From Bacteroidota bacterium (GTDB taxonomy: Bacteria > Bacteroidota > Bacteroidia > Chitinophagales > Chitinophagaceae): a stretch of 38,352 nt of DNA. The stretch's first letter is position 1. Each line of letters begins with the position of its first letter. A program made the translations under genes and the position numbers. The notes beneath the pieces were generated by a model, which had not been told where the DNA came from, did no database searches, and saw only the letters and a program-made list of their open reading frames with translations. The DNA lies in assembly GCA_947476825.1 (NCBI GenBank), contig CANJRV010000023.1, positions 1 to 38,352 of the forward strand, written 5' to 3'. Positions 2,623 through 35,999 of this stretch are shown here, in pieces.

Positions 2623-2707
2623 GCATTGCGGCAACGATTGTAGTGGAAATCCTTTTTGCTGGATCTGCAGCAAAAAGATTGTAACGAAAAGCGTGAGTGC
2701 CGCCCAA
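2623..2707. repeat. Structured repeat family A, copy 1
   Basis: Outer arms GCGGCA (2628-2633) and TGCCGC (2698-2703) are complementary. Inside, CTTTTTGCTG (2652-2661) pairs perfectly with CAGCAAAAAG (2668-2677) over a 6-base loop. The stretches GCATTGCGGCAACGATTG, TGGAAATCC and CGAAAAGCGTG are shared with copy 2 at 17424-17510; the outer parts also match the inverted copy at 35764-35850. It sits after the M28 gene and before fabI. An overlapping reading frame (2549-2734) is an artefact of the repeat. Confidence 0.8.
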
Positions 2708-8378: not shown

Positions 8379-9608
8379 ATGAAGAGCTTTGAAATTCCTG
8401 CCTTTTACAGAAGTCCATTAATAAGTGCAATCAAAAACAAACGGAAACAAGCGGACAAATTAAAAAAAGATTTTTCGCCAACGAAACTAGATTTTGGTGC
8501 TTTGGATATATACTTAGCCAGACATTTTGGATTCTGTTATGGTGTCGAGAATGCAATAGAAATTGCTTTTAAAACAGTGCAAGAAAACCCCGATAAACGC
8601 ATTTTTTTATTGAGCGAAATGATACATAATCCACAAGTAAATGCCGACTTGGTTAGAAGTGGCGTTCGTTTTATTATGGACACGGTAGGCAATATGTATA
8701 TACCTTGGAGCGAATTAGACAAAGAAGATATTGTGATCATACCCGCATTTGGCACTACTTTAGAAACAGAAAAAACGCTACTATCCATAGGTATTGATCC
8801 ACTTCGCTACAACACAACTTGTCCTTTTGTAGAAAAAGTTTGGAATCGTTCGGAGCAAATTGGGAATAAGGGCTATACTATTATTATTCATGGAAAACCG
8901 AAACATGAAGAAACACGCGCAACCTTTTCGCACAGTAGCCAGAATGCGCCGTCCTTAGTTGTAGAAGATTTAGAGCAAGCCAAATTATTAGAAAAGTATA
9001 TCACCAAAACGTGTGACCTCAATCTTTTTTATACCGAATTCCAAGGACAATATACAGAAGGATTTGATGTAGAAAAAGATTTGGAAAGAATTGGTGTAGT
9101 GAATCAAACAACCATGTTAGCCAGCGATACACAAGGTATTGCGGACTTTCTGAAAAATTGCATCACCGAACATTACCAACTTAAAGAAGATACCATTTCT
9201 GAAAGATTTGCAGATACTAGAGACACACTTTGTTATGCAACTAATGATAACCAAAGTGCAGTAAGAAGTTTATTACATATCGAAGCGGATTTGGCTTTTG
9301 TGGTGGGTGGTTACAATAGTTCCAACACTTCACACTTGGTTGAATTGTGTGAGGCAAAATTACCAACGTACTATATTGAAGATAATTCTAAAATATTATC
9401 ACAACAAGAAATTTTGCATTTTGATTTACATACTCGCTTAGAAAAATTAAGTTTGAATTATTTACCAAACAATACAAAACCTCAGATTCTGATTACTTCT
9501 GGCGCTTCCTGTCCTGATGCTGTGGTGGAGAATGTCATTCAAAAGCTATTGACCTACTATCCAAATTCTTATTCTATTGAGGAGGTTGTAAGGAAGGATT
9601 CGCTTTAA
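8379..9608 (+). CDS. ispH: 4-Hydroxy-3-methylbut-2-enyl diphosphate reductase
   Basis: IspH (LytB) is the last enzyme of the non-mevalonate (MEP) pathway: it reduces HMBPP to isopentenyl and dimethylallyl diphosphate with a [4Fe-4S] cluster. The three cluster cysteines are visible in ARHFGFCYGVENA (near residue 53), NTTCPFVEKV and TSGASCPDAVVE (near the C-terminus). At 409 residues it is the long form. The start is placed at ATG 8379 (MKSFEIPAF), because the frame's 23 extra upstream codons begin before the promoter box. The last codons (RKDSL, stop at 9606-9608) fall in an AAGGAAGGATTCGCTTT unit that resembles the hairpin repeat directly downstream, so the C-terminal end may have been supplied by a repeat. 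Confidence 0.95.
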   Translation: MKSFEIPAFYRSPLISAIKNKRKQADKLKKDFSPTKLDFGALDIYLARHFGFCYGVENAIEIAFKTVQENPDKRIFLLSEMIHNPQVNADLVRSGVRFIMDTVGNMYIPWSELDKEDIVIIPAFGTTLETEKTLLSIGIDPLRYNTTCPFVEKVWNRSEQIGNKGYTIIIHGKPKHEETRATFSHSSQNAPSLVVEDLEQAKLLEKYITKTCDLNLFYTEFQGQYTEGFDVEKDLERIGVVNQTTMLASDTQGIADFLKNCITEHYQLKEDTISERFADTRDTLCYATNDNQSAVRSLLHIEADLAFVVGGYNSSNTSHLVELCEAKLPTYYIEDNSKILSQQEILHFDLHTRLEKLSLNYLPNNTKPQILITSGASCPDAVVENVIQKLLTYYPNSYSIEEVVRKDSL

Positions 9609-9663
9609 AGGTAGGCTTTGGCTTCAAGGAAGGCTTCGCTTTGAGCGAAGCCTTCCTTGAAGC
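9592..9663. repeat. Family C hairpin, copy 1: perfect 20-base arms
   Basis: GCTTCAAGGAAGGCTTCGCT (9621-9640) is followed by TTG and then by its exact reverse complement at 9644-9663. Just upstream, 9592-9607 (AAGGAAGGATTCGCTTT) is a related half-unit inside the end of ispH. The hairpin could end ispH transcription, but no clean T-run follows it, so it is classed as a repeat. Confidence 0.85.
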
Positions 9664-9740: not shown

Positions 9741-9773
9741 AAGGAAGGCTTCGTTTTGAGTGAAGTCTTCCTT
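9741..9773. repeat. Family C hairpin, copy 2, G-U paired
   Basis: AAGGAAGGCTTCGTT (9741-9755), loop TTG, then AGTGAAGTCTTCCTT (9759-9773). All 15 positions still pair if three G-U wobbles are allowed, and the loop is identical to copy 1. It ends 22 bases before the next gene's ATG, inside that gene's probable leader. Confidence 0.75.
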
Positions 9774-9795
9774 GAAAAAATAAATAAACTTAATC

Positions 9796-12881: not shown

Positions 12882-13057
12882 GCCTTGGATAGTTTGGCGT
12901 TAAAAAAATGGAATGATCGGCGAACAAATCGTCCCTGTCTGAGCAACCGACGCAGGAGGATTGTGAGTTTGGACGATTTGCCTTGAGCATGAACATTTTT
13001 TAGCTAAACTATCCACAGCCTTGACTTTTTGGTTCTTTTGTGTCAAGACAAAAGAAC
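12882..13057. repeat. Family B composite repeat, copy 1 (with hairpin module)
   Basis: Two parts. Left: an imperfect long hairpin with arms GGATAGTTT (12887-12895) / AAACTATCC (13006-13014) and inner arms CAAATCGTCC (12925-12934) / GGACGATTTG (12971-12980). Right: CTTGAC (13020-13025), GTTCTTTTG (13032-13040), GTCAAG (13042-13047) and CAAAAGAAC (13049-13057), where the first pairs with the third and the second with the fourth. The hairpin module is bordered by the 6-mer GCCTTG at 12882-12887 and 13018-13023. It fills most of the 354-base gap between eno and the M14 gene; the rest is plain AT-rich sequence. Confidence 0.8.
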
Positions 13058-17423: not shown

Positions 17424-17510
17424 TGTATTGCGGCAACGATTGTAGTGGAAATCCTTTTTGCTGGCCCTTGCAGCAAAAAGATTGAAACGAAAAGCGTGCG
17501 TGCCGCCCAA
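17424..17510. repeat. Structured repeat family A, copy 2
   Basis: Nearly identical to 2623-2707 over the constant parts. The inner stem CTTTTTGCTG (17454-17463) / CAGCAAAAAG (17471-17480) is unchanged, but the loop is GCCCTTG instead of GATCTG. It lies in the divergent gap (17286-17610) between glyA and the nucleotidyltransferase gene; that gap holds no gene. A weak TAAATTTA box at 17562-17569 follows it. Confidence 0.8.
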
Positions 17511-35850: not shown

Positions 35851-35861
35851 ACGGCTATAAA

Positions 35862-35890
35862 AAGGCTTCACTTTGAGATAAGCCTTCCTT
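35862..35890. repeat. Family C hairpin, degenerate copy 3
   Basis: AAGGCTTCACTTTGAG, then AAGCCTTCCTT, matches the layout of the 9626-9658 hairpin, but only AAGGCTT / AAGCCTT still pair. It lies 12 bases after family A copy 3. Confidence 0.5.
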
Positions 35891-35952
35891 ATTTCAGGAA
35901 TGGGTTCATCTTATTAAGTATATCCAAAATTGTCGCCTGTAATTATGCATGA

Positions 35953-35999
35953 GCAAATGGCCTTGATTTTTTGGTTCTTTTGTATCAAGACAAAAGAAC
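35953..35999. repeat. Family B, copy 2 (no hairpin module)
   Basis: CTTGAT (35962-35967), GTTCTTTTG (35974-35982), ATCAAG (35984-35989), CAAAAGAAC (35991-35999). These are the same interlocking stems as copy 1, with C-G replaced by T-A in the first stem. The left flank GCAAATGGCCTTG is identical to the left edge of copy 1 (12875-12887), but the 130-base hairpin is absent. Confidence 0.8.

Follow-up and report, generated by a model that had tools for sequence, protein, structure and literature searches.

Interlocking and covarying stems at the 3′ end of a dispersed repeat in bacterial chromosomes

Dispersed intergenic repeats are common and are mostly regarded as junk or as REP and MITE debris. 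One such repeat was found in a stretch of 38,352 nucleotides from a Bacteroidota bacterium of the family Chitinophagaceae (assembly GCA_947476825.1, contig CANJRV010000023.1), hereafter the window. It ends in four short segments, the first complementary to the third and the second to the fourth, and raises the question of whether these interlocking pairings are conserved, how they would fold, and what a repeat might gain from such an end. The original prediction had placed the segments in two copies and had pointed to a single compensatory change between them. The positions are exact by sequence in both copies, and the pairing is real and widespread: this observation was correct and understated.

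The element and its parts

The module of 38 nt occurs twice in the window, and a repeat search of the window assigns both copies to one repeat family (D4, 43 nt, 95% identity). The proposed pseudoknot core forms the last 40 nt of a repeat of 176 bp (Table 1). With this repeat as the query, blastn returns 22 matches in the genome that contains the window (G000), eight of which, the query itself included, span the full 176 bp with identities of 88-100%. The conserved flanks reach somewhat beyond these limits on both sides. The core is present in 15 copies in G000 and in 17 copies in a sister species (G009), and it is absent from the other 12 of the 14 genomes of the genus.

The pairing between segments 1 and 3 is well preserved in these two species. 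All six pairs are intact in 30 of the 32 listed copies. The pattern behind this list fixed TCAA[GC] and allowed any sequence in segment 1 and any first base in segment 3; two G009 copies with GG changed to AG escaped it, so that the list does not sample segment 3 freely. The variable pair is C-G in 10 and T-A in 20 of the intact copies, and both species carry both forms. In the two remaining copies the pairing is partly lost (L004:1846-1914, CTTGTA/ATCAAC; L064, CTTGCC/GTCAAG). An early weak match, L020, which suggested a third type of pair, was dropped as a chance or degenerate hit.

Table 1. Positions of the element and of its parts in the window
Feature	Position	Strand	Basis
Full dispersed element copy, 176 bp as first delimited	12882..13057	+	8 full-length matches in its own genome
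Outer helix P1, 5′ arm GGATAGTTT	12887..12895	+	sequence; same architecture in G039 and G090
P1, 3′ arm AAACTATCC, just 5′ of segment 1	13006..13014	+	sequence; helix statistics
P2, 5′ arm AAAAAAATG, partner 12994-13001	12902..12910	+	sequence; RNAalifold consensus of 12 G039 copies
P2, 3′ arm CATTTTTT	12994..13001	+	sequence; RNAalifold consensus of 12 G039 copies
P3, 5′ arm CAAATCGTCC, partner 12971-12980	12925..12934	+	sequence
P3, 3′ arm GGACGATTTG	12971..12980	+	sequence
Apical variable hairpin, two alternative sequences among copies	12940..12967	+	15-copy alignment
38-nt module, copy 1	13020..13057	+	sequence
Segment 1, 5′ strand of stem S1, CTTGAC	13020..13025	+	sequence, covariation
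Linker L1, TTTTTG, candidate for the third strand of a U.A-U triple helix	13026..13031	+	T-run/A-run correlation
Segment 2, 5′ arm of stem S2, GTTCTTTTG	13032..13040	+	sequence, family patterns
Segment 3 in the S2 loop, GTCAAG: 3′ strand of S1 and proposed AAG bridge	13042..13047	+	
Segment 4, 3′ arm of S2, CAAAAGAAC	13049..13057	+	sequence, family patterns
Short form, core only, S1 in T-A form	35960..35999	+	sequence, repeat search, blastn
38-nt module, copy 2	35962..35999	+	sequence
Copy 2, segment 1, CTTGAT	35962..35967	+	
Copy 2, segment 2	35974..35982	+	
Copy 2, segment 3, ATCAAG	35984..35989	+	
Copy 2, segment 4	35991..35999	+	

Upstream of the core, the element is structured as well. 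In the genomes G039 and G090 the core closes a conserved unit of about 200 nt, in which P1 abuts segment 1 and is accompanied by P2 and by variable apical hairpins, and the window copy follows the same plan. Among 140 distinct cores from all groups, 50% have a strong helix abutting segment 1 on its upstream side, against 15% in the downstream control; here, as in the gene-context counts below, identical cores were counted once. The short form of the window lacks the 136 bp between direct GCCTTG repeats at 12882-12887 and 13018-13023.

Several further features of the copies deserve mention. A MITE-like insertion of about 104 bp occupies one identical point of the P1 3′ arm in L009, L010, L051 (twice) and L066; it has TAA on both sides in L010 and L066, and L007 and L040, the respective orthologs of L066 and L009, lack it. 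The core is also found in tandem arrays (L129, L132 and L133 in G090, L166 in G163, L057 in G009), with some core-only units of about 60-70 bp. A strongly conserved motif, ACAGTAGTACAAAAGC..TAATCARGG, precedes the hairpin in several genera (L177-L196, L153, L155, L158). In Pseudomonas and Firmicutes a further hairpin often follows directly 3′ of the core (CCGCCGTAAGGGCGG or TCGCC..GGCGAAAC; L232, L242, L278, L286 and others), and none was seen in the Bacteroidota copies examined. Lastly, the window holds a separate hairpin repeat, AAGGAAGGCTTCGCTTTGAGCGAAGCCTTCCTT, at 9590-9661, 9741-9776 and 35858-35893, and one of its copies lies about 70 bp from the short element copy.

Spread, covariation and the predicted fold

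The module was sought with patterns of decreasing sequence content. Of 147 genomes of the family, 23 contain matches to a hairpin pattern with a TCAAG loop; the number per genome ranges from 0 to 25 (19 in G039, 25 in G090), and the reversed control pattern matches once. In most of the 30 loci displayed from this set, an upstream segment is complementary to the loop, and the pairings include CTTGAA/TTCAAG, CTTGACC/GGTCAAG, TGTCC/GGACA and GCCC/GGGC. When both segment 1 and the loop were left free, 60 places turned up in the order, spread over 30 of 298 genomes, and the reversed control gave 8 places in 8 genomes. New pairings appear in this set (GCGG/CCGC, CTCC/GGAG, GTCC/GGAC, TGCTC/GAGCA, TTAAT/ATTAA). 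Four of its matches, L148, L151, L169 and L171, are probably due to chance; L148 and L169 were kept in the statistics.

In public species genomes, an exact pattern blind to segment 1 and to the loop found at least 120 stretches, in a scan run without a reversed-pattern control and in which some AT-rich matches may be chance. Only the 80 listed matches entered the later analyses. According to their record titles, these comprise 35 from Bacteroidota, 15 from Pseudomonas, 17 from Firmicutes, 2 from Gastranaerophilales and 11 others, among them Luteimonas, Cupriavidus, Cystobacterineae, Acetobacteraceae and Brachyspira. Their pairings are again different: GGGAC/GTCCC in Luteimonas, AGCG/CGCT in Pseudomonas, CGTG/CACG in Oscillospiraceae and TGCC/GGCA in an alphaproteobacterium. 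The original prediction mentioned a similar tract in other Bacteroidota; it is indeed present there, but this range was too narrow, as several phyla are concerned. The identical fold in the repeats of very different bacteria points to an apparently unnamed folded DNA or RNA element scattered through many chromosomes.

The covariation of S1 was measured by comparing each segment 1 with its own loop and with shuffled loops, using a hydrogen-bond score restricted to Watson-Crick pairs. All loci except the Y1 loci described below yielded 169 distinct cores, of which 7 without an A-run of at least 4 were dropped and 162 kept. The samples were mostly free in segment 1 and the loop, with the addition of the TCAAG-loop family sample. 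The 118 distinct combinations of segment 1 and loop score 10.65, against 7.83 ± 0.20 for 1000 shuffles, the best of which reached 8.41. After removal of loops with TCAA, ATCA or CCAA, the remaining 76 combinations score 9.29 against 7.29 ± 0.23 (8.09 for the best of 2000 shuffles). When each genome contributes a single copy, the 103 genomes score 10.94 against 8.08 ± 0.23 (best shuffle 8.74); the genome labels of this set were assigned by hand and each public contig was taken as one genome, eight merges excepted, and kinship is only roughly controlled here and in the run-length test below. At least four contiguous Watson-Crick pairs are formed by 62% of the 118 combinations, against 26% after shuffling; the other 38% do not form them, and L075, L094, the L174-L176 group and L180 have little or no S1. 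The pairing of segments 1 and 3 is thus kept by compensatory changes far beyond chance and across phyla. Loss of the pairing in many copies, or a lack of covariation, would have spoken against it, and the outcome of this test favours the pairing.

For S2 the picture is drawn by inspection only: in the TCAAG-loop set, its arms (two free bases per side) vary together, whereas the order-wide and public-genome patterns select partly for S2 pairing. Of the expectation that both stems covary, the part on S1 therefore stands on shuffle statistics and the part on S2 on inspection, and with this qualification each of the two crossing stems of an H-type pseudoknot is kept by covariation. The third S2 pair also bears on the strand. 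In a hand count of the order-wide set it is T-G at 17 places in six genera and C-A at none, under a pattern in which either costs one mismatch at this pair. As the opposite strand would turn T-G into A-C, the + strand is favoured as the folded strand, either as RNA or as single-stranded DNA. Among 78 arm pairs, 44 are G-U and 4 are C-A, an excess which is partly forced by the pattern and the parser. The suggestion that the stems act in DNA as a protein site fits these data poorly, since a double-stranded site fails to explain pairings which become unrelated in sequence while complementarity is kept.

The linker between segments 1 and 2 consists of a T-run followed by GG, and the 3′ arm of S2 consists of an A-run followed by G. 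The two run lengths are linked. In 132 distinct cores the length of the T-run, less any T used in S1, correlates with that of the S2 A-run (rho 0.60); the correlation is 0.59 on 103 genome medians, and the partial r given the A+T content of the flanks is 0.60. In 131 of 138 cores the A-run is followed by G, which corresponds to the G that the parser demands after the T-run. The linker of an H-type pseudoknot lies in the deep groove of S2, parallel to the A-strand, as U.A-U triples need. Because the T-run lengthens with the A-run, as a U.A-U triple helix requires, a true H-type pseudoknot is likely for the two interlocking stems. On the whole, it is very probable that the fold is a pseudoknot. 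The T-run, which matches the A-run in length, would then probably serve as the third strand of a U.A-U triple helix, a proposal drawn from the run lengths only.

A full pseudoknot had been judged sterically hard, as a single base separates segments 3 and 4 in the window copies. This objection probably fails. Copies that are not of the CTTG type mostly have a segment 3 of 3-5 nt, and in many Bacteroidota copies it is followed by AAG (GGGGTCC...GGACAAGC, GGCTCC...GGAGAAGC, GGGGCCC...GGGCAAGC); Pseudomonas loops differ at this position. Since AAG often stays in Bacteroidota when CTTG is replaced, the working S1 probably comprises 3-4 bp, with AAG as a bridge. With such a bridge, the inner 3-4 pairs of S1 and stem 2 can coexist.

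Genomic setting and possible roles

The element is dispersed: its copies sit in unrelated flanks and mostly in intergenic positions. Among the G009 loci examined, ten G000 copies have an orthologous place and five do not. The G009 place orthologous to 35960 holds an array of two full and two core-only copies. Three ortholog pairs are 96.1-99.4% identical, and the paralogs among eight G000 copies are on average 92.4% identical. Neither a clean empty site nor a target duplication was found at G000 L005 compared with G009, or at G337 L187 compared with G331, G350 and G095. At the first of these places, examined in detail, G009 has about 130 bp of unrelated sequence; at the second, G331 has other sequence, and the other places are filled or replaced. 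For L002, only partial flanks were found in G009. As to the terminal inverted repeats that mark a MITE of a DDE transposase, imperfect outer arms (GTATCCAAATTGTTGC-like, with their complement) were read by eye in G000 and G009. No such arms were seen in G039 or G090.

Genes next to the element show no preferred orientation. Sufficient flanking sequence is available for 113 distinct cores, of which 21 lie inside naive ORFs and 4 have no neighbour; the 88 scored cores divide symmetrically by neighbour strand (30/30/14/14), with 30 same-sense and 30 antisense contexts. No gene recurs beside the element among the ORFs of the 166 copy loci, several of which are overlapping windows of one place, and of the 80 listed public loci. 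Candidates for a linked gene were rejected in both sets. In the 166 loci the largest clusters are translations of the element or genes of one multiply sampled place, and in the 80 listed loci the largest cluster unites two-component sensor and response proteins by single linkage, followed by translations of the element.

We give about an even chance to the reading of the module as the 3′ terminus of a dispersed non-coding element that is non-autonomous and whose + strand, when single-stranded, forms an H-type pseudoknot. The + strand, as RNA or single-stranded DNA, would fold so that the first 3-6 nt of the loop of the T/A-rich S2 pair with segment 1 to form S1. A short AAG would span S1, and the linker with its T-run would occupy the deep groove of S2, probably in a U.A-U triple helix. 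The single strand would be the working form, and its compact end might be the recognition or protection end of an intermediate, copied or moved within chromosomes by machinery provided in trans. Points against this reading are the copies without S1, the 38% of combinations short of four contiguous pairs, and the failure to find a mover or a clean empty site.

A host-selected small RNA with several gene copies, whose 3′ pseudoknot blocks 3′ exonucleases or binds a protein, is a possible but unlikely alternative. At one intergenic site, three species of the genus g83 retain the element with altered arms and an altered S1 (GTCC/GGAC, TGTC/GACA, CTTGAC/GTCAAG), and TACAGTAGTACAA is invariant. This retention of the fold at one site across species, with its compensatory changes, could instead reflect a function at the level of the host. 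The few matches in plasmids and phages, obtained with the window repeat and one Pseudomonas copy as the only queries, and the 24 stretches in viral contigs, all counts being unnormalised for collection size, would be unusual for a mobile element. The third S2 pair, T-G but never C-A in the order-wide set, suits a small RNA as well. However, the distribution is patchy, with 2 of 14 genomes of the genus and a per-genome range from none to 25 matches, and the core-only and tandem forms, together with the internally deleted L011, resemble the debris of selfish repeats.

The two pairings might also be alternatives, forming a switch or an attenuator as the original prediction offered, but we regard this as rather improbable. 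In CTTG-type copies a full S1 of 6 bp leaves a one-base bridge, and the linker T-run could pair with segment 4, which would alone account for the linked run lengths. This competing helix, however, fits at both end bases in only 43 of 138 distinct cores, and the AAG bridge, which lets both stems coexist, is kept in many copies without CTT. Moreover, the absence of orientation bias in the neighbouring genes leaves no regulated gene evident, and the proposal is unsupported.

That the element serves an HUH (Y1) transposase as a REP-like substrate, with the enzyme working in trans on single-stranded DNA, appears improbable too. Y1_Tnp matches number 8 in G000 and 10 in G009, and 0-2 in the 12 other genomes of the genus; more broadly, they are common, being present in 14 of 16 genomes with the element and in 13 of 16 without it. 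No terminal duplication was seen, as would suit such a substrate, and RAYTs of subclass 2.6 in Bacteroidota are described with atypical structured repeats (PMC6006769). Nevertheless, blastn found no copy of the element in 30 Y1 loci of the genus, no Y1 gene is present in the 166 copy loci, and the 80 listed public loci contain one RAYT match (L275), about 5.6 kb from the core. GT[AG]G is missing directly 5′ of the S2 hairpin. Since the element-rich genomes G090, with its 25 pattern matches, and G337 have no Y1_Tnp match, a Y1 transposase seems unneeded, and the RAYT/Y1 link was rejected on these grounds. Several Y1 genes of G000 and G009 are flanked by their own kinds of paired hairpins.

Finally, a transcription terminator or a plain double-stranded DNA site with incidental pairing is highly improbable: the hairpins adjoin T-runs in mostly intergenic positions, but the T-run of the window copies precedes an A/T-rich hairpin and none follows it, no GC-rich hairpin with a subsequent T-run in the sense of the upstream gene was found, same-sense and antisense contexts are equally frequent, and S1 covaries.

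Returning to the reading of a non-autonomous element with a pseudoknotted 3′ end, a broader version is conceivable, though doubtful, in which one family of triple-helix pseudoknots makes up the 3′ end of small non-coding elements. These would lack their own transposase and multiply inside chromosomes by way of a folded, single-stranded intermediate, which might be RNA. If true, these elements would be a bacterial counterpart of the short retroposons of eukaryotes, and the family would range over chromosomes of Bacteroidota, Pseudomonadota, Firmicutes, Gastranaerophilales and others. 

A precise fold with linked run lengths outlives complete sequence change across several phyla, and its shape thus seems to be recognised. 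If confirmed, it would offer a searchable and testable structure for asking how such repeats spread and whether they are active as RNA.

Comparison with known systems

At the gathering score, Rfam 15, which includes STAXI, Pedo-repair, group II introns and HEARO, gave no match over the element in the window or in 20 loci. With cmscan at E values up to 1 (3 loci) or 5 (8 loci), only Flavo-1, outside the element, reached the gathering score. Weak overlaps with Trp_leader (E 0.31, L160) and, on the opposite strand, with UPD-PKib (E 4.5) and AS-pc01 (E 5; both L164) look like chance. Literature searches by sequence and by words yielded no description of the pseudoknot, and the Pseudomonas repeat R178 discussed below was the sole lead.

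In its predicted shape, the module recalls the H-type pseudoknots of the telomerase RNA type, which carry a U.A-U triple helix. Both have a U-rich first loop, an A/U-rich second stem, a short last loop containing A and matching run lengths. They differ in that the triple helix of the present module is proposed from lengths only, and no protein or pathway is common to the two.

Flavo-1 RNA (RF01705) is likewise a multi-copy structured element of Bacteroidota, and it is also present in the window (2626-2702 and 17428-17505). Its sequence is different, and cmscan places no Flavo-1 over the element. In G000:C2 (L124), a RAYT-like gene with a YIHQNP motif has a further Flavo-1 copy about 100 bp downstream of it, and blastn finds Flavo-1 in G009:C54 (L123) at the same coordinates, 1052-1138. 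Given this proximity, Flavo-1 might not be an RNA gene but the structured repeat that belongs to a subclass 2.6 RAYT.

The element shares with the REP/RAYT systems (REPtrons) of subclass 2.6 the dispersed, intergenic and structured nature of the repeats, and in both no terminal duplication is seen. Unlike in REPtrons, no Y1 gene was seen beside the copies or flanked by them, and two element-rich genomes have no match. The GT[AG]G foot is also missing; its place at the 5′ foot of the hairpin is taken by TTTTTG in the window copies and by a T-run in the other cores, the latter by construction of the patterns. A GTAG occurs farther 5′, within ACAGTAGTAC, in several genera. In addition, the hairpin loop of the present element pairs with an upstream segment.

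In Pseudomonas, the R178 repeat of P. fluorescens is described as 101 bp long, with an internal inverted repeat of 11 bp and 18, 28 and 9 copies (PMC2718517). The Pseudomonas form of the present element (GTTACTTTTGG/CCAAAAGTGAC) fits such an inverted repeat and a moderate copy number. The description of R178 mentions neither a pseudoknot nor a link to other phyla (PMC2718517). R178 may be the Pseudomonas form of the element, a candidate likened to it by description.

Nearest in kind is the STAXI motif (RF01728), a pseudoknot in tandem repeats for which the authors weigh RNA against single-stranded DNA (PMC2864571). STAXI is listed for Enterobacteriales and near DNA-handling genes, whereas the element described here has no recurrent gene beside it, no Rfam match at the gathering score, and no match in E. 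coli for the one Pseudomonas copy tried. Like STAXI, its cores can stand in tandem, as in G090 (L132-L133) and G163 (L166).
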